Part shown: in pieces, positions 29,163-40,014 of the stretch
Layout of the letters: each line of letters begins with the position of its first letter
Numbering within the stretch: the stretch's first letter is position 1
Source of the DNA: Streptomyces sp. C10-9-1
GTDB lineage: Bacteria > Actinomycetota > Actinomycetes > Streptomycetales > Streptomycetaceae
Length of the DNA: 64,000 bases
Assembly: GCF_024497955.1 (NCBI RefSeq)
Contig: NZ_JANHKP010000008.1
Location: forward strand, 62,001 to 126,000
Reading direction: 5' to 3'
Program-made: the position numbers and the translations under genes
The notes under the pieces: model-generated
Databases searched by the model: none
What the model was told of the DNA's origin: nothing
The model's input: the letters and a program-made list of their open reading frames with translations, nothing else

Positions 29163-30491
29163 ATGACGCGCGCCATCGCTCTGCACGACGTCGGCAAGAG
29201 ATACGGGCGCGGCCCGCGTGCCGTCGACCGCTTCACGCTCACCGTCGAACCCGGCGAGTTCCTGGTGCTCCTCGGGCCGTCCGGATGCGGCAAGTCCACG
29301 GTGCTGCGCATGATCGCCGGGCTGGAGGACATCACCGAGGGCCGGCTGCTGCTCGACGGCGAGCCCGCCAACCACATCCCGCCCCGCGAGCGGGACATGG
29401 CCATGGTCTTCCAGAACTTCGCGCTCTACCCGAGCATGACCAACCGCGAGAACATCGGCTTCCCGCTCCGGCTGGAGAACCCGCGGGCCGACCGGAACCC
29501 CCGCGTCGAGGCCACCGCCCGGATGCTCGGGATCGAGGACCTCCTCGACCGCTTCCCCGGCCAGCTCTCCGGCGGCGAGCGCCAGCGGGTGGCCATGGGG
29601 CGGGCGATCTCCCGTCGCCCCTCCGCCTTCCTCATGGACGAGCCGCTCTCCAACCTCGACGCCAAGCTCCGCGGCCACCTGCGTGCCGAGATCGCCCGCC
29701 TCACCGCCGAACTCGGCGTCACCACCGTGTACGTCACCCACGACCAGGCCGAGGCGATGTCCCTCGGCGACCGGGTGGCCGTGATGCGCGGGGGCGTCCT
29801 CCAGCAGGTCGGCGCCCCCCGGGACACCTACGCCCTTCCTGCCAACGTCTTCGTCGCCGCGTTCATCGGCACGCCCCGGATCAACCTGTTGGAGGCCGTC
29901 GTGCACGCCCCCCTCGACGGACCGATGACCCTCGACCTCGGGCGCCAGCGCATCCGGCTGCCCGAACCCCTCAGCCCCGACCACCAGTTGCTCCGCATCC
30001 AGCAGGGGCGGCGGCTCGTCCTCGGGCTGCGCTTCGAGGGGGTGCGCATCGCCCCGCCGAGCCGGGCCCGGCCCGGCGAGGCCCCGCTCACCGGCACGGT
30101 GGAGCACATGGAGTACCAGGGCCACGAGGCCCTGGTGCACTTCGCCACCGGCTCGCGCCCCGCCCCCGTGGGCGAGCTGGAGGCCGCCCGGCCCGTGTCG
30201 CCCGTCCGCCGCCGCGCCGGCGGGCCCGGCACGCTCACCCGGTTGAAGAACCGGGCCGCCGGCCGGCTCGCCCGCCCGCTCGCCGTCCTGGACGCCCCCG
30301 AGGCGCCGGGCGAGGGCGAGCGCCCCGCCACGGCCCCGGGCGACCTGGTGGTCCGCACCGGACCCGACGTCCGCCTGCGGCGGGGTGCGCAGGTGCCGCT
30401 GCTGGTGGACGTGGCCCACCTGTACGTCTTCGACCACCACGGCCGCCGGGTGTGCCCGGCACCCGCCGAGCTCCCCGGCTTCGACGTCTGA
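29163..30491 (+). CDS. ABC transporter ATP-binding protein, MsiK/UgpC-like, no adjacent permease
   Basis: A 442-residue ATPase from ATG 29163. Walker A is GPSGCGKST (38-46), the signature is LSGGERQR, Walker B is AFLMDEPLSNLDAKL and the switch His is VYVTHDQAEA. A C-terminal TOBE/OB region places it with carbohydrate-importer ATPases of the MsiK, MalK and UgpC type. The C-terminal part contains a ~65-residue Arg/Pro/Ala-rich insertion (about residues 345-410) unusual for MsiK. There are no permease or binding-protein genes nearby, so it may serve several distant transporters, as MsiK does. Confidence 0.88.
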   Translation: MTRAIALHDVGKRYGRGPRAVDRFTLTVEPGEFLVLLGPSGCGKSTVLRMIAGLEDITEGRLLLDGEPANHIPPRERDMAMVFQNFALYPSMTNRENIGFPLRLENPRADRNPRVEATARMLGIEDLLDRFPGQLSGGERQRVAMGRAISRRPSAFLMDEPLSNLDAKLRGHLRAEIARLTAELGVTTVYVTHDQAEAMSLGDRVAVMRGGVLQQVGAPRDTYALPANVFVAAFIGTPRINLLEAVVHAPLDGPMTLDLGRQRIRLPEPLSPDHQLLRIQQGRRLVLGLRFEGVRIAPPSRARPGEAPLTGTVEHMEYQGHEALVHFATGSRPAPVGELEAARPVSPVRRRAGGPGTLTRLKNRAAGRLARPLAVLDAPEAPGEGERPATAPGDLVVRTGPDVRLRRGAQVPLLVDVAHLYVFDHHGRRVCPAPAELPGFDV

Positions 30492-30621
30492 CGGCCCGGT
30501 TTCCCGAGGCCGCGCGCCGGCGTCGGCCCCGCCCGGCCGCGCGCCGCCCGCGGCCGGGGTGGTGCGCGCCCGCCGGTGGCCGGAACGGCCGCGGTGGGGG
30601 GAGGGGGGCCCTGGCGCTCGA

Positions 30622-30640
30622 AAACTAACATCGCTAGTTT
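30622..30640. promoter_or_regulatory. TetR-type operator AAACTA-N7-TAGTTT
   Basis: A perfect inverted repeat AAACTA/TAGTTT with a 7-bp spacer, 33 bases before the aldehyde dehydrogenase start, in an otherwise G+C-rich leader. The same architecture occurs at 37226-37244. Confidence 0.75.
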
Positions 30641-30673
30641 GGTGGGCCGGAGCTACCCGTGCGGAGGAGTGCC

Positions 30674-32068
30674 ATGAAGGCTCACGACGGCCTGTACATC
30701 GACGGCGCCTGGCGGCCCGCCCTCGCGACGGGCGCCATCGCCGTGGTGAACCCGGCCGACGAGCAGATCATCGCCCATGTCCCGGACGGCGGGGAGGCCG
30801 ACGTGGACGCCGCCGTGCGTGCCGCCCGGGCCGCGTTCCCCGCCTGGCGGGCCACCCCGCCCGCCGAGCGGGCCGCCGTGCTGTCCGCCCTCCACGAGGA
30901 ACTGGGCCGCCGCACCGAGGAGATCGCCGAGACCGTCACCGCCGAGCTGGGCGCCCCGCCGAAGCTCGCCCTCGCCGTCCACGCCTCCCTCCCGGTCACC
31001 GTCGCCGGATCCTTCGCGGAGCTGGCCGCCACCTGCGCCTTCGAGGAGACCATCGGGAACTCGACCGTGCTGAGGGAGCCGGTCGGCGTCGTGGGCGCCA
31101 TCACGCCCTGGAACTACCCGCTCCACCAGATCGTCGCCAAGGTCGCGCCCGCCCTGGCCGCCGGGTGCACCGTGGTGCTCAAACCCGCCGAGGACACCCC
31201 GCTGACCGCGCAGCTCTTCGCGGAGGCGGTCGACGCGGCGGGTGTGCCGGCAGGTGTGTTCAACCTGGTCACGGGCGTCGGGGCGGTCGCCGGGGAGGCC
31301 CTGGCCGGGCACGAGGACGTGGACCTGGTCTCCTTCACGGGGTCCACCGCCGTGGGCCGCAGGGTCGCCGCCACCGCGGGCGCCGCGATCAAGCGGGTCG
31401 CCCTCGAACTCGGAGGCAAGTCCGCCAACGTCGTCCTGCCGAGCGCCGACCTCGCCGCGGCCGTCAACGCCGGAATCGCCAACGTGATGGCCAACTCCGG
31501 CCAGACGTGCAGCGCCTGGACCAGGATCCTCGTGCACACCGACCGCTACGAGGAGGCCGTGGAGCTGGCGGTCGCGGCCGTCGCCAGGTACGTCCCCGGC
31601 GAGCGGGTCGGCCCGCTGGTCAACGCCCGCCAGCGCGAGCGCGTGCGCGGCTACATCGACCGGGGCGTGGCCGAGGGCGCCCGGCTCGTCGCCGGCGGCA
31701 CCCGGCCGCCGCTGCCGACCGGCTACTACGTCAGCCCCACCGTCTTCGCCGACGTCACCCCGGGCATGACCATCGCCCAGGAGGAGATCTTCGGCCCGGT
31801 CGTCTGCCTGATGCGGTACGAGGACGAGGAGGACGCCCTCGCCCTCGCCAACGGCACCGTCTACGGTCTGGCCGGAGCGGTGTGGGCGGCCGACGACGCC
31901 GAGGCCGTCGCCTTCGCCCGCCGCATGGACACCGGCCAGGTCGACATCAACGGCGGCCGCTTCAACCCCCGCGCCCCCTTCGGCGGCTACAAGCAGTCGG
32001 GCGTCGGCCGGGAACTCGGGCCGCACGGCCTTGCCGAGTACCTTCAGACCAAGTCCCTCCAGTTCTGA
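30674..32068 (+). CDS. NAD(P)-dependent aldehyde dehydrogenase
   Basis: A 464-residue ALDH-superfamily enzyme from ATG 30674, with GGAGGAG upstream; ATG 30659 lacks a good site. Catalytic residues are Glu245 (LELGGKS) and Cys279 (NSGQTCSA); the cofactor and oxyanion Asn is in TPWNYPLHQ. It oxidises an aldehyde to its acid in the cytoplasm. It is the first gene of a two-gene operon with an alcohol dehydrogenase 17 bases downstream, so the pair can convert an alcohol through its aldehyde to an acid. The AAACTA-N7-TAGTTT operator indicates TetR control shared with an acyl-CoA dehydrogenase. Confidence 0.93.
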   Translation: MKAHDGLYIDGAWRPALATGAIAVVNPADEQIIAHVPDGGEADVDAAVRAARAAFPAWRATPPAERAAVLSALHEELGRRTEEIAETVTAELGAPPKLALAVHASLPVTVAGSFAELAATCAFEETIGNSTVLREPVGVVGAITPWNYPLHQIVAKVAPALAAGCTVVLKPAEDTPLTAQLFAEAVDAAGVPAGVFNLVTGVGAVAGEALAGHEDVDLVSFTGSTAVGRRVAATAGAAIKRVALELGGKSANVVLPSADLAAAVNAGIANVMANSGQTCSAWTRILVHTDRYEEAVELAVAAVARYVPGERVGPLVNARQRERVRGYIDRGVAEGARLVAGGTRPPLPTGYYVSPTVFADVTPGMTIAQEEIFGPVVCLMRYEDEEDALALANGTVYGLAGAVWAADDAEAVAFARRMDTGQVDINGGRFNPRAPFGGYKQSGVGRELGPHGLAEYLQTKSLQF

Positions 32069-32085
32069 TCCGGGAGCAACGCATC

Positions 32086-33165
32086 GTGGTCCGTGCAGCC
32101 GTCCTGCCCTCCGTCGGCGCCCCCCTGGAGATCACCCGGATCTCCCTGCCCGAGCCCGGCCCCGGCCAGGTCCGGGTCCGGCTGGCCGCCGCGGGGGTCT
32201 GCCACTCCGACCTGTCGCTCTCCGACGGCACCATGCGGGTGCCCGTCCCGGCCGTCCTCGGCCACGAGGGTGCCGGGACCGTGCTCGCCGTCGGCGAGGG
32301 CGTCGAACACGTCGCCGTCGGCGACGGCGTCGTCCTCAACTGGGCGCCCTCCTGCGGAACCTGCCACCACTGCTCCCTGGGCGAGGTGTGGCTCTGCACC
32401 GAGGCGCTGGCCGGCGTGGGCCGCGTGCACGCCACCGCGGCCGACGGCACCGCGCTCCACCCGGGCCTGAACGTGGCCGCCTTCGCCGAGGAGACCGTCG
32501 TCCCCGCCGGCTGCGTACTGCCCGCCCCCGAGGGCGTCGACCTCGCCGACGCGGCCCTGCTCGGCTGCGCCGTGCTCACCGGCTACGGCGCGGTCCACCA
32601 CGCCTCCCGGGTGCGCGAGGGGGAGTCCGTGGCCGTCCTCGGCGTCGGGGGCGTCGGCCTCGCCGCGCTCCAGTCCGCCCGGATCGCGGGCGCCGGGACG
32701 ATCGTCGCCGTGGACGTGTCCCCGGAGAAGGAGGAGCTGGCACGGCGAGCGGGCGCCACCGACTACGTGCTCGCCTCCGACGCCACGGCCAAGGAGGTCC
32801 GCCGCCTCACCGGGGGCCGGGGCGCGGACGTGGCGGTCGAGTGCGTCGGCCGCGCCGCCACCATCCGCGCCGCCTGGGACGCCACCCGGCGCGGCGGGCG
32901 CACCACGGTCGTCGGCATCGGCGGCAAGGACCAGCAGGTGACCTTCAACGCGCTGGAGATCTTCCACTTCGGCCGCACCCTCTCGGGCTGCGTCTACGGC
33001 AACTCCGACCCCGCCGCCGACCTCCCGGTCCTCGCGGAGCACGTGCGCGAAGGCCGCCTCGACCTCTCCGCGCTGGTGACGGACCGCATCCCGCTGGACG
33101 GGATCCCGGCCGCCTTCGACGCGATGCGCCGGGGGCGGGGCGCGCGTTCACTGGTCGTCTTCTGA
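32086..33165 (+). CDS. Zinc-dependent alcohol dehydrogenase (MDR superfamily)
   Basis: A 359-residue medium-chain dehydrogenase starting at GTG 32086, with GGGAG nine bases upstream. The catalytic zinc ligands are in GVCHSD and GHEGAG; the structural zinc Cys are in CGTCHHCSLGEVWLC. The Rossmann motif is VLGVGGVGLAALQSA. It oxidises an alcohol, or reduces an aldehyde, with NAD(P). It is coupled to the upstream ALDH, and both probably feed acids into acyl-CoA metabolism. It is similar in sequence style to, but distinct from, the mycothiol-dependent enzyme at 53263. Confidence 0.92.
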   Translation: MVRAAVLPSVGAPLEITRISLPEPGPGQVRVRLAAAGVCHSDLSLSDGTMRVPVPAVLGHEGAGTVLAVGEGVEHVAVGDGVVLNWAPSCGTCHHCSLGEVWLCTEALAGVGRVHATAADGTALHPGLNVAAFAEETVVPAGCVLPAPEGVDLADAALLGCAVLTGYGAVHHASRVREGESVAVLGVGGVGLAALQSARIAGAGTIVAVDVSPEKEELARRAGATDYVLASDATAKEVRRLTGGRGADVAVECVGRAATIRAAWDATRRGGRTTVVGIGGKDQQVTFNALEIFHFGRTLSGCVYGNSDPAADLPVLAEHVREGRLDLSALVTDRIPLDGIPAAFDAMRRGRGARSLVVF

Positions 33166-33211
33166 CGCGCCGGGGCGGCGCGCCCGCCCGAGGGCGTGGA
33201 CCGGGCGGGTG

Positions 33212-33652
33212 TCAGCGGGCCATCCGCCGCCCCAGCTCCCGGGCCCGGGCACGCAGCCCCTCGGCCCAGTGGGCGCCGTCCGGCGGGAGGTGCGCCCCCG
33301 TGCCTTGGGAGACCTGCACGTCGGTGAGTGGTTCCCCGGGCGGGAGACCGAGCCTGGCCCAGTCCGGCTCGATCCCGGCGCGCTCGGCGAGGACGAGGAC
33401 CGTCGCGGTGAAGCCCTCGGACAGCGCGAGGACGACGGCGTGGCCCGTCCTGCGGTGCCGGTCGAGCAGGGCCTCGACGAAGGCGGCGAAGGCCACCGGG
33501 TCGATCGCGCACTCGTCCATCTCCATCGGCCCCAGTCCCGACGGCAGCTCCAGCTCCTCCTCGAAGAGCCTCACCTGGCGCAGGAACAGCCGCGAGGCGC
33601 CGTTGGACGGGTTCCACAGGGTCTCGTCGCCGAGGTCGTAGAACTGGCTCAT
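33212..33652 (-). CDS. DUF6086-like small protein
   Basis: A 146-residue protein from ATG 33652, with GGGAGGG ten bases upstream. It begins MSQFYDLGDETLWNPSNGASRLFLRQV and continues LPSGLGPMEMDECAIDPVAFAAFVEALL, which I recognise as the DUF6086 pattern of actinomycetes. It is cytoplasmic and acidic, with no catalytic motif. It is divergent from the frameshifted XRE regulator and marks the left edge of an accessory patch. Function unknown. Confidence 0.7.
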   Translation of the reverse strand: MSQFYDLGDETLWNPSNGASRLFLRQVRLFEEELELPSGLGPMEMDECAIDPVAFAAFVEALLDRHRRTGHAVVLALSEGFTATVLVLAERAGIEPDWARLGLPPGEPLTDVQVSQGTGAHLPPDGAHWAEGLRARARELGRRMAR

Positions 33653-33825
33653 CGTGCTGGTGTCCCTCCCGTTGCGGCCGGCCATCGTATGCGCCGCCGG
33701 GCAGCCCCTACCCCTCCGGGTGATGTGCGCGGTGTCCGCGCTTCGGGCGATGGCCGCGGTCGGTACGGTCGCGGGCGGGGGCCCGGCCGAGGTCCTCCAG
33801 GCCCCGGATCGTGGAACGGTGAACC

Positions 33826-34705
33826 ATGGCCGCACGCAAGGACGTCGACGGCTCCGCGAGTGTCCCGGCCCTCTACGGGGCGGAGCTCCGCCACCCACCG
33901 GAGGGAGGCCGCCGGGCTGACGCTCCAGCAGACGGTGGAGGGCAGCTTCTACGGCGCGAGCCTGCTCAGCGAGATCGAGCGGGGCTCGCGGCGGATGCCC
34001 GCGGATCTGGCCCGGCACGTGGACCGGCTGCTCGCGACGGACGGCTTCTTCGAGCGCCGCTGCGAGGACGTGCGCAGGGCCAAGCACCGTGGACACGCCG
34101 AGTACTTCGAGCGCGTCCTGGACGCGGAAGCCCATGCCTCGGCCATCGAGCAGTGGTCGCCCGCCGTCGTTCCCGGTCTGCTCCAGACAGAGGCGTACAT
34201 GCGTGCGCTGTTCAAGACGGAGCGCTCGCCGCTCTCCTCACGGGAACTGGAGGAGAGGGTGGGCGCGCGCCTGGCCCGCGCCGATGTGCTCCGGGCGTCC
34301 ACCGGCACCCCGCAGTACTGGGTCGTGGTGCACGAGGCCCTGGTCCGCCACTCCGTGCTGCCGCCCGGTGAGATGGCCGTGCAACTCGACCACATCGCCC
34401 AGTTCGCCCGGGACGAGCGCATCTTCGTGCAGGTTCTGCCGTGGAGCGCCGGGGCGTATCCGCTCATGCAGGGGAACGCGATGATCCTGGAGTTCGCCGA
34501 CGCTCCACCCCTGGTGTACGTGGAGTCCCAGCACCACGGCAGCACTCATGACGATCCAGCCCTCGTGAAGCGGTACCGGAGGTCGTACGATCTGCTGAGG
34601 GCTGCCGCCCTGCCACTGGACGCGTCCCTGGCGCTTCTGGAGAAGGCGGCCGAAGACTGCGGACAAGGCGGGCAAGCTGGTGGACGTGACCACAGGCTGG
34701 CGTAA
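33826..34705 (+). pseudogene. XRE-family regulator with DUF5753 domain, frameshifted
   Basis: The ATG at 33826 starts MAARKDVDGSASVPALYGAELR, a normal beginning for this family. That frame then turns into Arg/Pro-rich noise. The frame one base off continues the protein: REAAGLTLQQTVEGSFYGASLLSEIERGSRRMPADLARHVD, then the DUF5753 core WSPAVVPGLLQTEAYMRALF. Removing one C from the run near 33890-33896 would restore a ~290-residue protein. It may be a true inactivating mutation or a sequencing error. Such regulators pair with DUF397 proteins, as here, in BldB/AbaA-like modules. Confidence 0.75.
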
Positions 34706-34871
34706 GAGCAGCTACAGCAACACCTCCGGCGGAGACTGCCTCGAAGTGGCCGACGGGGTCTCCGGCTCCGTCCCGGTGCGGGACTCCACGCGGCCCGAGG
34801 GGCCCGTCGTGGTGGTGGGCGCGGGGGCGTGGGCGGTGTTCGTCGGCGGCCTGCGACGCGGGGCCCGCTGA
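34680..34871 (+). CDS. DUF397 domain protein
   Basis: A 63-residue protein starting at GTG 34680 or GTG 34686. It has the DUF397 pattern WRKSSYSNTSGGDCLEVADG, VPVRDSTRPEGPVVVVGAGAWAVFVGGL. Its start overlaps the end of the XRE/DUF5753 gene, the standard arrangement for this regulator-partner pair in Streptomyces. These proteins are thought to act as antagonists or partners of the XRE regulator. The partner gene is frameshifted here, so the module may be inactive. Confidence 0.88.
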   Translation: MDVTTGWRKSSYSNTSGGDCLEVADGVSGSVPVRDSTRPEGPVVVVGAGAWAVFVGGLRRGAR

Positions 34872-34933
34872 CCCGCCCGGGGATGCCGCGGGCGCGGGTC
34901 CGGGTGTTGCGGGGCATGAGTCGGTGACACCGG

Positions 34934-34983
34934 CCGATGCCAGTGGAACCGAGATGCTCCGACGGGCATCGGTCGGGTAGCGT
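34934..34983 (+). promoter_or_regulatory. cmlR promoter region with inverted repeat
   Basis: CCGATGCC (34934-34941) and GGCATCGG (34965-34972) form a perfect 8-bp inverted repeat. TAGCGT at 34978-34983 is a -10 box ending seven bases before the ATG of the leader peptide, predicting a leaderless transcript. Confidence 0.55.
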
Positions 34984-34990
34984 GCGGGCC

Positions 34991-35056
34991 ATGTCGAGTC
35001 CTGAGTCAGACGAGGTGGGGGCTTTCGGTCACGCCGTCAGCCCCCTGGACCACTGA
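34991..35056 (+). CDS. cmlR leader peptide
   Basis: A 21-codon open reading frame (MSSPESDEVG... ending PLDH, TGA at 35054-35056). Its ATG lies seven bases after a TAGCGT -10 box, so translation can begin at the mRNA 5' end. It precedes the efflux gene by 112 bases that contain a strong hairpin. Leader peptides whose translation stalls with a ribosome-targeting drug control several chloramphenicol resistance genes by attenuation. The same is inferred here and not shown by sequence alone. Confidence 0.55.
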   Translation: MSSPESDEVGAFGHAVSPLDH

Positions 35057-35084
35057 GCTCGTAGCCCTGTCGTCCCGCCGCGTT

Positions 35085-35122
35085 CCGCGGCCGGGCGAGT
35101 GTGCCCTTGGGGCTGGCCGCGG
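35085..35122 (+). promoter_or_regulatory. Hairpin in cmlR leader, candidate attenuator
   Basis: CCGCGGCC (35085-35092) pairs perfectly with GGCCGCGG (35115-35122). An alternative inner pairing GGGC/GCCC (35093-35096 with 35103-35106) overlaps the loop. It lies between the leader stop and the cmlR start. Confidence 0.55.
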
Positions 35123-35168
35123 TGACGAGATGACCTTCTCGTGCTTCTCCTCACCCCGGAGCCACTCG

Positions 35169-36347
35169 ATGCCTCTCCCGCTGTACCTGCTTGCCATGGC
35201 GGTTTTCGCCATGGGCACCTCGGAATTCATGCTTGCCGGCCTCCTGCCGGACATCGCCTCGGACCTCGACGTCACGGTCGGGACCGCCGGAACGCTCACG
35301 TCGGCCTTCGCGGTCGGCATGATCGTCGGTGCCCCACTCGTGGCCGCGCTTGCCCGCAACCGGCCCAGGCGCTCCACCCTTCTCGGGTTCATCCTCACTT
35401 TCGCCGCAGCTCATGCCCTGGGCGCCATGACCACGGGCTTCCCGGTCCTGTTCGCCACCCGGGTCGTCGCCGCGCTCGCGAACGCAGGGTTCCTCGCCGT
35501 CGCTCTGACGGCTGCCGCCACACTGGTCTCACCCGACAGGAAGGGACGTGCACTGGCCGTGCTGCTGTCAGGCACGACGGTGGCCACGATCGCCGGTGTC
35601 CCCGGCGGCTCGGTGCTCGGCACGTTGCTCGGCTGGCGGGCCACGTTCTGGGCTGTCGCCGCTCTCTGCCTGCCCGCGGCCCTCGGCATCCTGAAGGGAA
35701 TCCCCGCAGGGCGTGACGAGGATGAGGCGACTGGCAGGCCGGCGTTGCGAGCGGAGTTCACCCAGCTCACACGGCCGCGGTTGATCCTGGTGATGCTGCT
35801 CGGCGCGCTGGTGAACGCGGCAACCTTCGGAAGCCTCACCTTCCTCGCCCCCGTGGTGACCGACAGCGCCGGGCTGGGCGAGTTGTGGGTCTCCGTCGCC
35901 CTGGTGCTCTTCGGCGCCGGTTCCTTCGTGGGCATCACCCTCGCCGGCCGACTGTCCGACCGGCGTCCCGGTCCGGTCATCGCAGTCGGCGGCCCGCTGC
36001 TGCTCGTCGGCTGGCCGGCCCTCGCGATGCTGGCCGACGAGCCGGTCGCCCTGTTCCTCCTCGTGTTCGTACAGGGCGCGCTGTCGTTCGCGCTGGGCAG
36101 CACGCTGATCACGCGGGTCCTCTACGAGGCCACGGGAGCCCCCACCATGGCCGGCTCGTACGCGACCGCGGCGCTCAACGTGGGCGCCGCCGTCGGCCCC
36201 GTCATCGCTGCGGCGACCCTCAGCACCGAAGCCGGGGACCTCGGGCCGCTCTGGGCAAGCGGACTCCTCGTCGCGGTCGCGCTGCTCATCGCGTTCCCTC
36301 TCCTCACCACCATCACGGCCGGCCGGAGCGCCGAGGTGCTCCGGTGA
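35169..36347 (+). CDS. cmlR: Chloramphenicol efflux MFS transporter, Cmx/CmlR family
   Basis: A 392-residue, 12-helix major-facilitator protein from ATG 35169 (MPLPLYLLAMAVFAMGTSEFMLAGLLPDIA). The 392 residues match the length I recall for Streptomyces CmlR. The conserved loop AALARNRPRR, motif C-like GSVLGTLLGW and the tail ALNVGAAVGPVIAAATL are typical. It exports chloramphenicol across the membrane using the proton gradient. An in-frame ATG at 35130 is upstream but unlikely. Base composition is visibly less G+C-rich than its neighbours, and it abuts a transposase remnant, which fits lateral acquisition. Its leader suggests drug-responsive attenuation. Confidence 0.92.
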   Translation: MPLPLYLLAMAVFAMGTSEFMLAGLLPDIASDLDVTVGTAGTLTSAFAVGMIVGAPLVAALARNRPRRSTLLGFILTFAAAHALGAMTTGFPVLFATRVVAALANAGFLAVALTAAATLVSPDRKGRALAVLLSGTTVATIAGVPGGSVLGTLLGWRATFWAVAALCLPAALGILKGIPAGRDEDEATGRPALRAEFTQLTRPRLILVMLLGALVNAATFGSLTFLAPVVTDSAGLGELWVSVALVLFGAGSFVGITLAGRLSDRRPGPVIAVGGPLLLVGWPALAMLADEPVALFLLVFVQGALSFALGSTLITRVLYEATGAPTMAGSYATAALNVGAAVGPVIAAATLSTEAGDLGPLWASGLLVAVALLIAFPLLTTITAGRSAEVLR

Positions 36348-36535
36348 CACACGCGAACGCCCCTTTGGACGTTGAGGGGCGCCGAAGGCGCGCGGCGCGC
36401 TGCCGTACCCGTCCGATCGCGCACGTCACCGCCGAGGCCGGTGTCTCCCGTGGGCCTACTCGGTTGATTCGGCAACGCGGCGAGTCGCCGTGCCGGGCGT
36501 CGCGACGGGGCGAACGTTGCCTGACGGGGCACTAG
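36344..36535 (+). pseudogene. IS481-type transposase N-terminal remnant
   Basis: Starting at a GTGA overlap with the cmlR stop, the frame encodes VTHANAPLDVEGRRR...RPIAHVTAEAGVSRG. This is the familiar N-terminus of IS481-family transposases (HTH region) in Streptomyces. After about 40 residues the similarity stops and the frame ends at 36535. The DDE catalytic domain is gone. Its presence next to cmlR supports past movement of this patch. A hairpin CGCCCCT/AGGGGCG (36358-36381) lies inside it and could also terminate cmlR mRNA. Confidence 0.7.
36358..36381 (+). terminator. Hairpin after cmlR
   Basis: CGCCCCT (36358-36364) and AGGGGCG (36375-36381) form a perfect 7-bp stem with a 10-base loop just past the cmlR stop. 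It lies inside the transposase remnant and has no T-run. Confidence 0.45.
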
Positions 36536-37197
36536 TCGCCCCTGGTGCTCCAGCCGCCGCGCACGCCCGCCTCGTACTGGAGGGCCAGGCCGTCGAGCAG
36601 GGCGGTCAGGCCGGTGGCGAACGCGCCCTCGTCCACCTGCTCCTGGCGCTCCGCCAGCAGATGCGCCTGGCCGAGGTGGGGGTAGTCCGCCGGGTCGTAG
36701 GCGGCCGCGTCGTCCACGAAGCCGCGGGCGAAGGAGCCGAGGGCCGAGCCCGTGACGAAGTAGCGCATCAGGGCGCCGATGCTGGTCGCCTGGGCGGGCG
36801 GCCATCCGGCGCGGACCATCGCCCCGAAGACCGCGTCGGCGACCCGCAGGCCGGCGGGCCGCCGTCCGGGGCCCCGGGCGAGCACCGGGACGGCGTTGGG
36901 GTGGGCGCGCAGGGCGGCCCGGTAGGAGAGCGCCCAGTCGTGCAGCGCGGTGCGCCAGTCGCGGGGGTCGTCCGCGTCGAACATCGACAGGTCGATCCGG
37001 GCGCTGACCGCGTCCGCGACGGCGTCCAGGATCTCGTCCTTGTTGCGGAAGTGGTTGTACAGGGAGGGCCCGCTGACACCGAGTTCGGCCGCGATCCGGC
37101 GGGTGGAGACCGCGTCCAGGCCCTCCGCGTCCACGAGTGCGCCGGCCGTCTCGACGATCAGGTCGCGGCTGAGGAGGGGCTTGCGCGGTCGGGCCAT
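36532..37197 (-). CDS. TetR-family regulator of acyl-CoA dehydrogenase and ALDH/ADH genes (predicted)
   Basis: A 221-residue protein from ATG 37197 (MARPRKPLLSRDLIVETAGALV); ATG 37206 is also possible. The HTH is LDAVSTRRIAAELGVSGPSLYNHFRNKDEILDAV, and a TetR_C-like ligand domain follows. It is divergent from an acyl-CoA dehydrogenase, with the operator AAACTA-N7-TAGTTA between them. The same operator lies 6.6 kb upstream before an aldehyde/alcohol dehydrogenase operon. It therefore probably represses both sets and is released by an acyl-CoA or related ligand (inferred). Confidence 0.88.
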   Translation of the reverse strand: MARPRKPLLSRDLIVETAGALVDAEGLDAVSTRRIAAELGVSGPSLYNHFRNKDEILDAVADAVSARIDLSMFDADDPRDWRTALHDWALSYRAALRAHPNAVPVLARGPGRRPAGLRVADAVFGAMVRAGWPPAQATSIGALMRYFVTGSALGSFARGFVDDAAAYDPADYPHLGQAHLLAERQEQVDEGAFATGLTALLDGLALQYEAGVRGGWSTRGD

Positions 37198-37225
37198 GCG
37201 GCACATAGTAGGGCCTGCCCACAAT

Positions 37226-37244
37226 AAACTAGCGGTGGTAGTTA
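37226..37244. promoter_or_regulatory. TetR operator AAACTA-N7-TAGTTA
   Basis: An inverted repeat with 7-bp spacer between divergent tetR (28 bases) and acyl-CoA dehydrogenase (18 bases) starts. It has the same half-sites and spacing as 30622-30640. Confidence 0.75.
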
Positions 37245-37262
37245 ACGGGGGAGTGCCCGCGC

Positions 37263-38414
37263 ATGGACCTGGAGCTCAGCGAGGAGCAGGAGGCCGTCCG
37301 GCGGCTGGCCCGGGACTTCGTCGTCCGCGAGGTGGCCCCCCATGCCGCCGCGTGGGACCGGGCCGAGAGCGTCGACCGCGCCCTCGTGCGGAAGCTGGGC
37401 GCTCTGGGGTTCCTGGGGCTCACCGTCGACGAGGCGTACGGCGGCTCCGGCGGCGACCACCTCTCCTACTGCCTGGTCACCGAGGAGCTCGGACGCGGGG
37501 ACTCCTCCGTGCGCGGAATCGTCTCCGTCTCGCTCGGGCTGGTGGCCAAGACCATCGCCGCCCACGGCACCGACGCGCAGAAGCGGGCCTGGCTGCCCCG
37601 CCTGACCTCGGGCGAGGCGCTCGGCTGCTTCGGCCTCACCGAGCCCGGCACCGGCTCGGACGCGGGCAACCTGGCCACCCGCGCGGTCCGCGACGGCGAT
37701 GACTTCGTCATCGACGGCACCAAGATGTTCATCACCAACGGAACCTGGGCGGACGTGGTGCTGCTGTTCGCCCGCACCGGCGAGGCCCCCGGTCACCGGG
37801 GCGTCTCGGCCTTCCTGGTCCCGGCCGGCACCCCCGGGCTGACCCGCCGCCCGGTGCACGGGAAGCTCGGTCTGCGCGGCCAGGCGACGGCGGAACTGGT
37901 GCTCCAGGGCGTCCGCGTCCCCGCCTCGGCGATGCTCGGGCCCGCGGGCAAGGGGTTCGCCGTCGCGATGTCGGCCCTGGCCAAGGGGCGGATGTCGGTC
38001 GCCGCCGGGTGCGTCGGCATCGCGCAGGCCGCGCTGGACGCCGCGGTCGGCTATGCCGGGGAGCGCGAGCAGTTCGGCCGCTCCATCGCCCACCACCAGC
38101 TGGTCCAGGAACTGCTCAGCGACATCGCCGTCGACGTGGACGCGGCCCGGCTGCTCACCTGGCGGGTGGCCGACCTCGTCGACCGGGGCCGGGAGTTCGC
38201 CACCGCCGCCTCCACCGCGAAGCTGTTCGCCTCCGAGGCGGCGGTGCGCGCCGCCGGCAACGCCCTCCAGGTCTTCGGCGGCTACGGCTACATCGACGAG
38301 TACCCCGTCGGCAAGCTGCTGCGCGACGCGCGGGTGATGACCCTGTACGAGGGCACCAGCCAGATCCAGAAGCTGATCATCGGCCGGGCGCTGACCGGGG
38401 TGTCCGCCTTCTGA
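37263..38414 (+). CDS. Acyl-CoA dehydrogenase
   Basis: A 383-residue flavoenzyme. Family signatures are CFGLTEPGTGSDAGNLATRA and the catalytic base Glu in LYEGTSQIQKLIIGRAL; the N-terminal helical domain starts MDLELSEEQEAVRRLARDF. It introduces the alpha-beta double bond in an acyl-CoA and passes electrons to ETF. Length and motifs fit the short/branched-chain class, but chain length is not determinable. It is controlled by the divergent TetR through the operator immediately upstream. Confidence 0.95.
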   Translation: MDLELSEEQEAVRRLARDFVVREVAPHAAAWDRAESVDRALVRKLGALGFLGLTVDEAYGGSGGDHLSYCLVTEELGRGDSSVRGIVSVSLGLVAKTIAAHGTDAQKRAWLPRLTSGEALGCFGLTEPGTGSDAGNLATRAVRDGDDFVIDGTKMFITNGTWADVVLLFARTGEAPGHRGVSAFLVPAGTPGLTRRPVHGKLGLRGQATAELVLQGVRVPASAMLGPAGKGFAVAMSALAKGRMSVAAGCVGIAQAALDAAVGYAGEREQFGRSIAHHQLVQELLSDIAVDVDAARLLTWRVADLVDRGREFATAASTAKLFASEAAVRAAGNALQVFGGYGYIDEYPVGKLLRDARVMTLYEGTSQIQKLIIGRALTGVSAF

Positions 38415-38497
38415 GGGGCGCTGCGGACCCGCGGGCGTGCCCCCGGGCCCGCGGCGGGCGCCCGGAGTGAGTACCCGGAGTGAGTACCCGCGCCCAT

Positions 38498-38511
38498 GTG
38501 GCACGTGCCAC
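38498..38511. promoter_or_regulatory. Perfect 14-bp palindrome GTGGCACGTGCCAC
   Basis: It lies 19 bases before the YiaA-like start and is preceded by a tandem CCGGAGTGAGTAC duplication (38461-38488). It is a probable operator with a CACGTG core. Confidence 0.6.
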
Positions 38512-38530
38512 CACCCCGGATGCTGGGGCC

Positions 38531-38818
38531 ATGAGTGAGACACCGGTCAAGCAGCAGAACACCGCGGCCTACTACGGTCAGGCCGTCCTCTCCTTCGCGA
38601 TCGCCCTGGGAGCCGTGGTCCTCGGGCTCTACCACATGGAGGCGGACGCCTGGGTGCGGGCCTTCCTCGGGATCGCCGTCCTCTACCTGACCACCTCCGC
38701 CTTCACCCTCGCCAAGGTCGTCCGCGACCGGCAGGAGGCCGGGCAGATCGTCAGCCGGGTCGACCAGGCGCGCCTGGAGAAGCTGCTCGCCGAGCACGAC
38801 CCCTTCCAGAAGCTCTGA
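38531..38818 (+). CDS. YiaA/YiaB-type two-helix inner-membrane protein
   Basis: A 95-residue protein with two transmembrane helices (about 20-38 and 46-66; AVLSFAIALGAVVLGLY and AFLGIAVLYLTTSAFTLAKVV), matching the YiaA/YiaB family. The C-terminal helix is charged and cytoplasmic (QARLEKLLAEHDPFQKL). ATG 38531 is preferred over the frame start at 38480, which overlaps the palindrome. Role unknown. It is followed by a TetR gene on the same strand. Confidence 0.82.
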   Translation: MSETPVKQQNTAAYYGQAVLSFAIALGAVVLGLYHMEADAWVRAFLGIAVLYLTTSAFTLAKVVRDRQEAGQIVSRVDQARLEKLLAEHDPFQKL

Positions 38819-38828
38819 CGCGTCCGGC

Positions 38829-38842
38829 TAAGCGGCCGCTCA
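38829..38842. promoter_or_regulatory. Operator TAAGCGGCCGCTCA
   Basis: It lies 45 bases before the TetR start at 38888 and matches TAAGCGCTTGCTCA upstream of maoC (40052-40065). The common form is TAAGCG, two variable bases, then NGCTCA. Confidence 0.7.
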
Positions 38843-38887
38843 TCCCCGGGGTATGGTGTTCGTCCTGTGCCAGGGAAGGGGCGAGCG

Positions 38888-39565
38888 ATGACAGCGGCGG
38901 ACCAGTGGGCGGGCGGCGACATGCCCTGCGGCGCGCCCGACGACGAGAAGCCGTGGGACGAGGTCACCCCCGAGGCGGCCCGCAAGCTCCTGGTCGCCGC
39001 GGTCGAGGCCTTCGCCGAGCGCGGCTACCACGCCACGACCACCCGCGACATCGCGAGCCGGGCGGGCATGAGCCCCGCGGCCCTGTACATCCACTACAAG
39101 ACCAAGGAGGAGCTGCTCCACCGGATCAGCCGGATCGGCCACGACAAGGCGCTGGAGATCCTCTCGCGGTCGTACCGCAAGGACGGCACCCCGAGCGAGC
39201 GGCTCGCCGACGCCGTGCGCTCCTTCGTCCGCTGGCACGCGGGGCGCCATGCGACCGCCCGGGTGGTGCAGTACGAGCTGGACGCCCTGAGCGACGCCCA
39301 CCGGGCGGAGATCATCGAGCTGCGCCGCGAGACGGACGCCGTGGTGCGAAGGATCCTCGACGAGGGCGTGGCCGCGGGCGAGTTCGAGGTCCCGGACGTC
39401 CCCGGCACCACGGTGGCCGTGCTCTCGCTCTGCATCGACGTGGCCCGCTGGTTCAACACCCAGGGGCGCCGCACGCCCGACGAGGTCGGCGCGTTCTACG
39501 CCGACCTCGTGCTGCGGATGGTGGGGGCCCGGCCCGCGGGCCCGGGGCCGGATCAGAAGAAGTAG
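38888..39565 (+). CDS. TetR-family regulator, linked to maoC
   Basis: A 225-residue protein from ATG 38888 with GGGG upstream; GTG 38867 is an alternative. The HTH is YHATTTRDIASRAGMSPAALYIHYKTKEELLHRI, and a large ligand domain follows. Its 3' end overlaps the convergent maoC by 13 bases. Matching operators before this gene and before maoC indicate autorepression and control of the hydratase. An acyl-CoA ligand is likely for this family branch but is inferred. Confidence 0.88.
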   Translation: MTAADQWAGGDMPCGAPDDEKPWDEVTPEAARKLLVAAVEAFAERGYHATTTRDIASRAGMSPAALYIHYKTKEELLHRISRIGHDKALEILSRSYRKDGTPSERLADAVRSFVRWHAGRHATARVVQYELDALSDAHRAEIIELRRETDAVVRRILDEGVAAGEFEVPDVPGTTVAVLSLCIDVARWFNTQGRRTPDEVGAFYADLVLRMVGARPAGPGPDQKK

Positions 39566-40014
39566 CGGGAGACCGCCTCCGCCACGCACACGGGCTTGTC
39601 GCCGCCCTCCCGCTCCACGGTGACCCGCGCGGTCACCTGCACCCCGCCGCCCGCCTCCTCGACCCCGGTGAGCACGGCGGTGGCGCGGACCCGGGAGCCC
39701 GCGGGGACGGGGGCGGGGAAGCGGACCTTGTCGGAGCCGTAGTTGAGGCCCATGCGCACGCCCTCGACGCGCAGCACCTGGGGGACGAGCACGGGCAGCA
39801 GCGAGAGCGTCAGGTAGCCGTGGGCGATGGTGGTCCCGAACGGGCCGCCCGCCGCGCGCTCGGGGTCCACATGGATCCACTGGTGGTCGCCGGTCGCCTC
39901 GGCGAACAGGTCGATCCGCTTCTGGTCGACCTCCAGCCAGTCGCTGTACCCGAGCTGCTCGCCGACTCCGGCGCGCAGTTCCCCGGGGGAGGTGAAGATC
40001 CTGGGCTCCGCCAT
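39553..40014 (-). CDS. MaoC-like (R)-specific enoyl-CoA hydratase
   Basis: A 153-residue hot-dog-fold hydratase. The catalytic motif is FAEATGDHQWIHVDPERAAGGPFGTTIAHGYLTLSLLP (Asp and His of the R-hydratase active site). It hydrates trans-2-enoyl-CoA to (R)-3-hydroxyacyl-CoA. Its operator TAAGCGCTTGCTCA lies 37 bases upstream. It fits with the acyl-CoA dehydrogenases nearby as part of a fatty or branched acyl-CoA degradation set. Confidence 0.92.
   Translation of the reverse strand: MAEPRIFTSPGELRAGVGEQLGYSDWLEVDQKRIDLFAEATGDHQWIHVDPERAAGGPFGTTIAHGYLTLSLLPVLVPQVLRVEGVRMGLNYGSDKVRFPAPVPAGSRVRATAVLTGVEEAGGGVQVTARVTVEREGGDKPVCVAEAVSRYFF

Follow-up and report, generated by a model that had tools for sequence, protein, structure and literature searches.

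A candidate leaderless, chloramphenicol-sensing translation attenuator upstream of Cmx/CmrA efflux pump genes

The chloramphenicol exporter gene cmlR of Streptomyces sp. C10-9-1 is preceded by a short leader frame. This frame is real, and of the relatives that were chosen by protein similarity and examined, nearly all with about 50% identity or more possess it. We propose, at a probability of roughly 0.77, that this frame is the sensor of a leaderless, chloramphenicol-sensing translation attenuator of the exporter. If true, (i) nascent-peptide drug sensing would operate on a leaderless message, an initiation mode common in actinobacteria; (ii) the induction of a whole pump family, with the mobile cmx of clinical corynebacteria among its members, by the very compound that it exports would be explained; and (iii) a leader of nine codons would be a minimal natural candidate arrest peptide for the context-specific action of chloramphenicol on actinobacterial ribosomes.

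Results

The leader frame and the pump gene

The window, that is, the whole analyzed stretch of 64,000 nucleotides, carries the following features around the start of the pump gene, as read from its letters:

34978–34983, + strand: −10 box TAGCGT, followed by a gap of 7 nt
34991–35056, + strand: leader frame of 21 codons, MSSPESDEVGAFGHAVSPLDH, with its ATG at 34991 and a stop ending at 35056
35158–35161, + strand: Shine-Dalgarno sequence GGAG of the pump gene
35169–36347, + strand: cmlR-type gene for a Cmx/CmrA family chloramphenicol efflux MFS transporter of 392 aa (NF033135)

The pump protein (beginning MPLPLYLLAM...) scored 517.2 bits against NF033135, for which the curated cut-off is 400, and is assigned to the Cmx/CmrA family on this basis; its gene start at 35169 lies at the end of the range covered by the preliminary description of this locus. 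The 6.4-Mb genome from which the window is taken has one Cmx/CmrA gene, and no such leader was seen at the three nearest paralogues of the pump in that genome (41, 37 and 30% identical). Upstream, the frames at 33826–34871 (+) are presumably those of an XRE-type regulator and a DUF397 protein, and we take the convergent frame that follows cmlR (36532–37224, −) to encode a TetR-type regulator.

Conservation of the leader among pump relatives

We examined 80 loci that had been chosen solely by similarity of the pump protein (63–94% identity; the best 80 of 572) and whose genome contigs were scanned. A TAnnnT box, a spacing of 6–7 nt, an ATG or GTG and an MSSPE-like frame were found at 78 of them, including one in which MSSPE is followed directly by a stop (L015), while the leader is absent from two (L013 and L055). 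The preliminary description had placed a 21-codon frame seven bases after TAGCGT; these coordinates were confirmed, and the recurrence of the layout among relatives shows that it is not due to chance. The genera represented include Streptomyces, Kitasatospora, Saccharopolyspora, Saccharothrix, Micromonospora, Dactylosporangium, Plantactinospora, Actinomadura, Nocardia, Pseudonocardia, Spongiactinospora, Nonomuraea, Thermomonospora, Actinoallomurus, Nocardioides, Mycobacterium, Mycolicibacterium and Arthrobacter. Among more distant pumps (54–60% identity), all 20 loci opened, which were protein matches without a leader-model match among those listed, have the layout with a spacing of 6–8 nt, so that a conserved short frame upstream of the resistance gene is seen in both protein-picked sets. 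The leader was found at four of five earlier loci chosen likewise (L160–L164), and a pump relative at 45% identity (L097) is without one.

Plasmids were sampled by opening 12 of the 48 plasmid records that contain a pump relative. Eleven of these 12 loci have the leader, 10 of the 11 together with a TAnnnT box, and they add the genera Brachybacterium, Corynebacterium, Microbacterium, Rhodococcus, Glutamicibacter, Tsukamurella and Streptantibioticus.

The pattern TANNNT-N7-ATG-WSN-NSN-CCN-GAR-KCN matched 144 of 392 genomes of the window's genus, with two genomes matched by a reversed-pattern control, and 28 of 394 genomes of its class, with none for the control among the matches listed; 25 of the pattern loci that were opened proved to be long ordinary frames without a Cmx relative rather than leaders. 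Our leader model R1 matched 134 of the 392 genomes of the genus, the pump protein (E 1e-80) 196 of them; phylum-wide, R1 matched eight of 396 genomes, four of these weakly (E above 0.001).

Promoter and leaderless start

Two further features belong to the promoter:

34945–34950, + strand: GGAACC, a one-mismatch copy of the family's GAAACC-like box, WblC/WhiB7-like, at −46 to −41 from the leader start
34991, + strand: putative transcription start, the A of the leader ATG, as suggested by the spacing, the C at −1 and the rarity of SD-like 4-mers

Among 165 tabulated leaders, a TAnnnT box stands at 7 nt in 155, at 6 nt in nine and is absent in one, a count that is not independent because the set was chosen partly by the TAnnnT pattern; the 80 protein-picked loci and the 20 distant ones are the fairer samples for layout and spacing. 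An SD-like 4-mer occurs upstream of the leader start in only two of the 165, which argues against translation from a Shine-Dalgarno site. The locus combines two traits of leaderless actinobacterial attenuator uORFs, a −10 box at start-site distance from an RTG codon and no Shine-Dalgarno sequence, and this fits a transcript that would begin with the A of the leader or one base away from it. A simple sigma-70 consensus scan at the locus found no promoter.

The 153 distinct promoters in which the spacing is 7 nt show little conservation of the spacer apart from the C at −1 (143 of 153); AAA peaks at −45 to −43 from the leader start, which resembles the WblC/WhiB7 box, and GAAAWY or GAAAWWY lies within −60 to −33 in 25, compared with 1.0 in shuffles. 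An excerpt of PMC7157823 describes GAAAWY as the WblC site and counts cmlR2 among the genes of the WblC regulon. The GAAAC-like box upstream and the place of cmlR2 in that regulon would speak for purely transcriptional regulation, by a WblC/WhiB7 promoter, with the leader a relic. We consider this hardly credible, as codons 1–8 and the switch block described below are conserved over more than 20 genera; moreover, promoter control and leader attenuation can act together.

The promoter is also flanked by a perfect 8-bp inverted repeat, CCGATGCC/GGCATCGG (34934–34941 and 34965–34972), which encloses the GGAACC box and the −35 region. It opens the range of the preliminary description and is kept only in part in near relatives (L006, L008).

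Codons 1–8 of the leader peptide

The codon table comprises the 165 leaders left after loci without a Cmx relative, long frames, duplicates, two loci in which no leader was seen (L251 and L163) and L135–L144 had been dropped; L261–L280 were added later and stand outside it. From this table we delimited one feature, in which stalling is predicted:

34991–35014, + strand: putative stall module, codons 1–8 (MSSPESDE)

Proline at codon 4 is invariant (165/165) and glutamate at codon 5 nearly so (164/165, lysine in L091). Codon 6 is Ser in 95 leaders, Ala in 68, Thr in one and a stop in one (L015); codon 7 is chiefly Asp (88) or Ser (59); codon 8 is Arg in 100, Lys in 32, Glu in 17, Thr in 13 and Asp in two, so that the window, with Glu, has a minority state there. 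Wobble bases are free at codons 4–6. Leader length ranges from 9 to 26 codons (five in L015), and 33 of the 165 have just nine; a stall would therefore have to occur within nine codons or at the stop. Searches of NCBIfam with five leader peptides, and of Pfam with that of the window, gave no match.

Chloramphenicol is reported to stall ribosomes best after Ala, Ser or Thr (excerpts of PMC12121999 and PMC10192921), and the arrest motif of CmlA to be K-N-A-D (PMC10192921, likewise in part), which resembles the ..E-S-D or ..E-A-S of these leaders. By sequence, the Ala/Ser/Thr penultimate residue typical of phenicol stalling attenuators is present at codon 6 of 164 of the 165 leaders, and we predict that ribosomes stall when codon 7 occupies the P site, the residue of codon 6 (Ser/Ala/Thr) being penultimate. 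A run of the regulated amino acid, a trait of leaderless actinobacterial attenuator uORFs, is absent from the peptides.

The arginine at codon 8 is encoded by AGA in 72 leaders and AGG in 28, never by CGN, and by AGA in all 56 leaders of the type 2 described below; in 92 pump genes, AGA makes up 11 of 1387 arginine codons. Since AGA and AGG are the sole arginine codons at this position (100/100), slow decoding could itself be a signal. It might be argued from this, and from Pro4-Glu5 being the most constant residues of the leader, that the frame is kept for another signal (amino-acid supply or slow translation in general) or for a small peptide, chloramphenicol stalling being incidental. We regard this as very improbable: leader length varies (down to five codons in L015), the sequence after codon 8 is read in three frames, the peptide has no single-amino-acid run, and the short leaders found precede a chloramphenicol pump, bar the exceptions L175, L195 (=L253), L252, L180 (=L135), L136, L137 and L142.

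The change of frame is evident from the core of the leader hairpin P1, GGTCACGCCGTCAGCCCC, which was located in 99 loci; 87 of them have it in frame 0, nine in frame 2 and three in frame 1, and it accordingly reads GAFGHAVSP, GLSVTPSAP or GGFRSRRQP. Past about codon 8 it is the RNA rather than the peptide that appears to be kept; the conserved peptide part is codons 1–8, and the remainder of the leader would carry RNA structure.

Three competing helices between leader and pump

Folding and alignment of the leaders suggest the following elements:

35017–35045, + strand: P1 leader hairpin, 35017–35023 with 35039–35045, inner part 35026–35028 with 35034–35036
35028–35044, + strand: 5' strand of the P2 antisequestor, the 3' half of P1, predicted to pair with 35109–35126 once the 5' part that a ribosome at codon 7 would cover is omitted
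35109–35126, + strand: 3' strand of P2, GGGGCTGGCCGCGGTGAC, shared with P3, a strongly conserved block in 79 aligned leaders
35117–35159, + strand: P3 sequestor, 35117–35119 with 35157–35159 and 35121–35125 with 35151–35155, inner part 35125–35130 with 35137–35142

P1 (7+3 pairs) is present in the RNAalifold consensus of 49 leaders and in the predicted fold of the window, which for the whole leader consists of P1 and P3; in this fold P3 covers part of the pump's Shine-Dalgarno sequence. The same fold pairs UCGAG of the leader with CUCGA before the pump ATG, which is suggestive. No Rfam family matched window positions 30000–40000, and two matches below threshold (L083 and L085, minus strand) were taken as chance.

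Covariation was assessed in 102 loci (97 distinct rows) against 500 shuffles, which ignore relatedness. The pattern used for typing had assigned some type-2 rows to type 1; six of these were removed, and L157 and L227 remained. Double-change cells numbered eight for P1 (1.1 shuffled), 16 for P2 (4.2) and five for the outer part of P3 (0.5), values reached by none of the 500 shuffles; the inner part of P3 has 11 compared with 5.3, in a set that still held some type-2 rows. The clearest case is P2 pair 43 (GC 75, GT 7, AT 7, CG 4, non-pair 6, gap 3), in which the four CG rows lie beside an indel and depend on the alignment. The number of P2 pairs with any double change (4 vs 2.8 shuffled, equalled in 122 of 500) and that of extra P2 pair types (14 vs 13.9, equalled in 318 of 500) are not raised. 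Versions of P2 slid along the alignment gave 9–17 double-change cells, yet only 31–37% of their cells are paired, compared with 90%. The three competing helices, P1, the P3 sequestor and the P2 antisequestor, are predicted structures with some support from covariation.

The preliminary description had named a different switch, a perfect hairpin before cmlR:

35085–35092 and 35115–35122, + strand: arms of the 8-bp repeat CCGCGGCC/GGCCGCGG, not the conserved pair

Its letters are as described, but the hairpin is not conserved. For each of 102 relatives, we took its own 8-mer at the place of the 3' arm and sought a partner upstream; a perfect partner was found in five (1.1 shuffled) and seven of eight positions in 25 (16.1 shuffled), slightly above chance, and the repeat was rejected as the conserved switch. 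In the predicted fold of the window its 5' arm pairs locally, while its 3' arm, which is conserved, belongs to the antisequestor/sequestor block.

A helix sequestering the Shine-Dalgarno sequence of the resistance gene is predicted, with an outer part that covaries, for type-1 leaders only. The type-2 leaders (n=56), which belong to more distant pumps, have a different hairpin, CCACCGG/CCGGTGG, and are often of nine codons, for example MSSPEASRR. When an antisequestor was sought in 54 of the 56 by complementarity to the 3' arm of this hairpin, none was clear (8.46 vs 8.23 shuffled).

That type 2 lacks an evident antisequestor would also suit transcription attenuation, in which a ribosome halted on the leader would keep transcription from ending early, at an intrinsic terminator or through Rho, ahead of the pump gene, as for wblC or actinobacterial ABCF genes. 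Such attenuation is known for Streptomyces drug uORFs (according to parts of PMC12421871 and, for wblC, of PMC7157823), and a closed Shine-Dalgarno sequence could also expose the RNA to Rho. However, a search for an intrinsic terminator found no terminator-like site in 34850–36500, and P3 covers part of the Shine-Dalgarno sequence and covaries in its outer part, so that we judge termination control to be unlikely and prefer control of translation.

Simulated ribosome stall

To estimate what a stalled ribosome would do to these helices, the RNA was masked in ViennaRNA as far as 15 nt downstream of the first base of the P-site codon, and the cost of opening the stretch from the Shine-Dalgarno sequence to 6 nt past the pump ATG was computed for 84 leaders (L018, in which no Shine-Dalgarno sequence was found, was left out). 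The predicted cost is 10.5 kcal/mol for free RNA, 8.3–8.5 with codons 3–5 in the P site, 5.2–6.2 with codons 6–10 and 8.6 with codon 16. The pump start is therefore easiest to open at codons 6–10, where the cost lies below that of free RNA in 80–83 of the 84 leaders; for the window itself, it is 10.2 free, 6.0 at codon 7 and 7.8 at codon 16.

The effect was weaker when the 3' arm was shuffled: the difference between codons 7 and 16 is −1.39 compared with −3.14 for real arms, and 66 of 120 shuffled and 25 of 30 real arms favored codon 7 over codon 16 by 1 kcal or more. The mean unpaired probability of the Shine-Dalgarno sequence drops, opposite to the expected direction, from 0.22 free to about 0.10 at codons 6–8; a CUCC/GGAG mini-hairpin forms in the modeled stalled state, so that only the opening cost falls. 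Type-2 leaders (n=56) respond more weakly (10.2 free, 8.3 at codons 6–8, 9.2 at codon 16).

Discussion

The codons at which the computed switch would open the pump include the predicted stall site, and this argues for drug-induced translation attenuation. We envisage a transcript whose first base is the A of the leader ATG or its immediate neighbor. Without the drug, the leader would be read through, P1 would form, and the strand GRCCGCGGTGAC would fold onto the pump's ribosome-binding site (P3) and presumably keep it closed. Judging from the sequence and the known specificity of the drugs, ribosome-bound phenicols would halt peptide-bond formation once M-S-S-P-E-[S/A]-x has been made, Ser/Ala being penultimate; the stalled ribosome would cover the 5' arm of P1 and free its 3' half for GGGGCTGRCCGCGGTGAC (P2), whose formation would break P3 and open the pump's start. 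Chloramphenicol-dependent stalling on a leaderless peptide had been suggested in the preliminary description, and this part fits the identity of the gene, the codon-6 rule, the −10 spacing and the helices, while the hairpin named there does not.

In the classical cat-86 and cmlA attenuators, a short uORF with a Shine-Dalgarno sequence is stalled by the drug, with Ala, Thr or Ser before the P-site residue, and alternative helices control a sequestor over the Shine-Dalgarno sequence of the resistance gene. The cmlR leader shares with them the short upstream frame and, by prediction, the drug-dependent stall context, the sequestor and the alternative helices. It differs in having no Shine-Dalgarno sequence and apparently no 5' UTR, and in its actinobacterial peptide, MSSPE.., for which no sequence relation to theirs was shown.

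A leaderless short frame acting as a sensor would be a feature shared with the amino-acid attenuator leaders leuL, trpL and ilvL of S. lividans (PMC8079986, in part) and with the cysteine uORFs proposed in mycobacteria (PMC4633059, in part). Those leaders sense amino-acid supply, without a drug context, whereas the cmlR leader precedes a chloramphenicol pump; the terms cml and chloramphenicol do not occur in the searched text of PMC8079986. In wblC/whiB7, tiaA and are5sc, as is proposed for cmlR, actinobacterial uORFs sense ribosome-targeting drugs before Streptomyces resistance genes (excerpt of PMC12421871). Unlike the cmlR leader, the ABCF uORFs (tiaA, are5sc) have ribosome-binding sites of their own, a terminator switch and start-codon stalls, according to the same excerpt.

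In the preliminary description, a regulatory peptide on a leaderless 5' end was taken as not described in detail, and by title or abstract no paper on an MSSPE leader before cmlR or cmx was found among the literature matches listed; the kind of attenuation is known, and its leaderless, family-wide, drug-sensing version is undescribed among these matches. The 1992 report on R. fascians cmr and the 1998 report on Tn5564 may have noted a leader. A 'chloramphenicol resistance leader peptide' is mentioned for 77 C. striatum sequences in an excerpt of PMC10486106 and may or may not be the same ORF. The words chloramphenicol, leaderless, cmlA and Cmx do not occur in the uORF4u paper (PMC10219788), nor 'leader' or 'attenuat' in the text of PMC5467266, which covers the spread of cmx to proteobacteria; the annotation tables of seven Tn-type cmx plasmid records have no leader among the features listed.

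The leader-to-cmx region of C. striatum pTP10 recurs at at least 99% in 20 plasmid records, five of them proteobacterial (three Pseudomonas aeruginosa, Comamonas, Shinella), and had no match in the E. coli genomes searched. Only tentatively, and with considerable doubt, we suggest that the start codon, SSPE[S/A]x and a rare AGA/AGG or Lys A-site codon form a separable leaderless phenicol-sensing module, which evolution may have coupled to different RNA switches and which Tn5564/Tn45-type cmx elements may have carried into proteobacteria; the rare Arg codon might then contribute to sensing by slowing the ribosome exactly where the drug acts.

Short MxxPE leaders have a Cmx relative at most 2.3 kb away, except L175, L195 (=L253), L252 and L180 (=L135), and we take leaders without such a relative nearby to be decayed loci or chance. 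L135, L136, L137 and L142 retain a leader, with no cmlR within about 2.7 kb, and in L144 (G718:C17) about 3.1 kb of other DNA lies between the leader and the cmlR start. Two long ordinary frames with leaderless-type starts, L173 and L194, also begin MSSPESD, by chance or through a shared start preference.

In the mobile cmx loci (L088, L255–L260; Tn5564/Tn45-type), the −10 box, leader and switch region are all within the stretch kept at at least 99% in the 20 of 20 matched plasmid records, and the C. resistens locus has an IS1628 transposase gene directly upstream. L015, with TGA at leader codon 6, 177 bases before an intact-looking pump start, and with its RNA elements kept, is a natural leader mutant.
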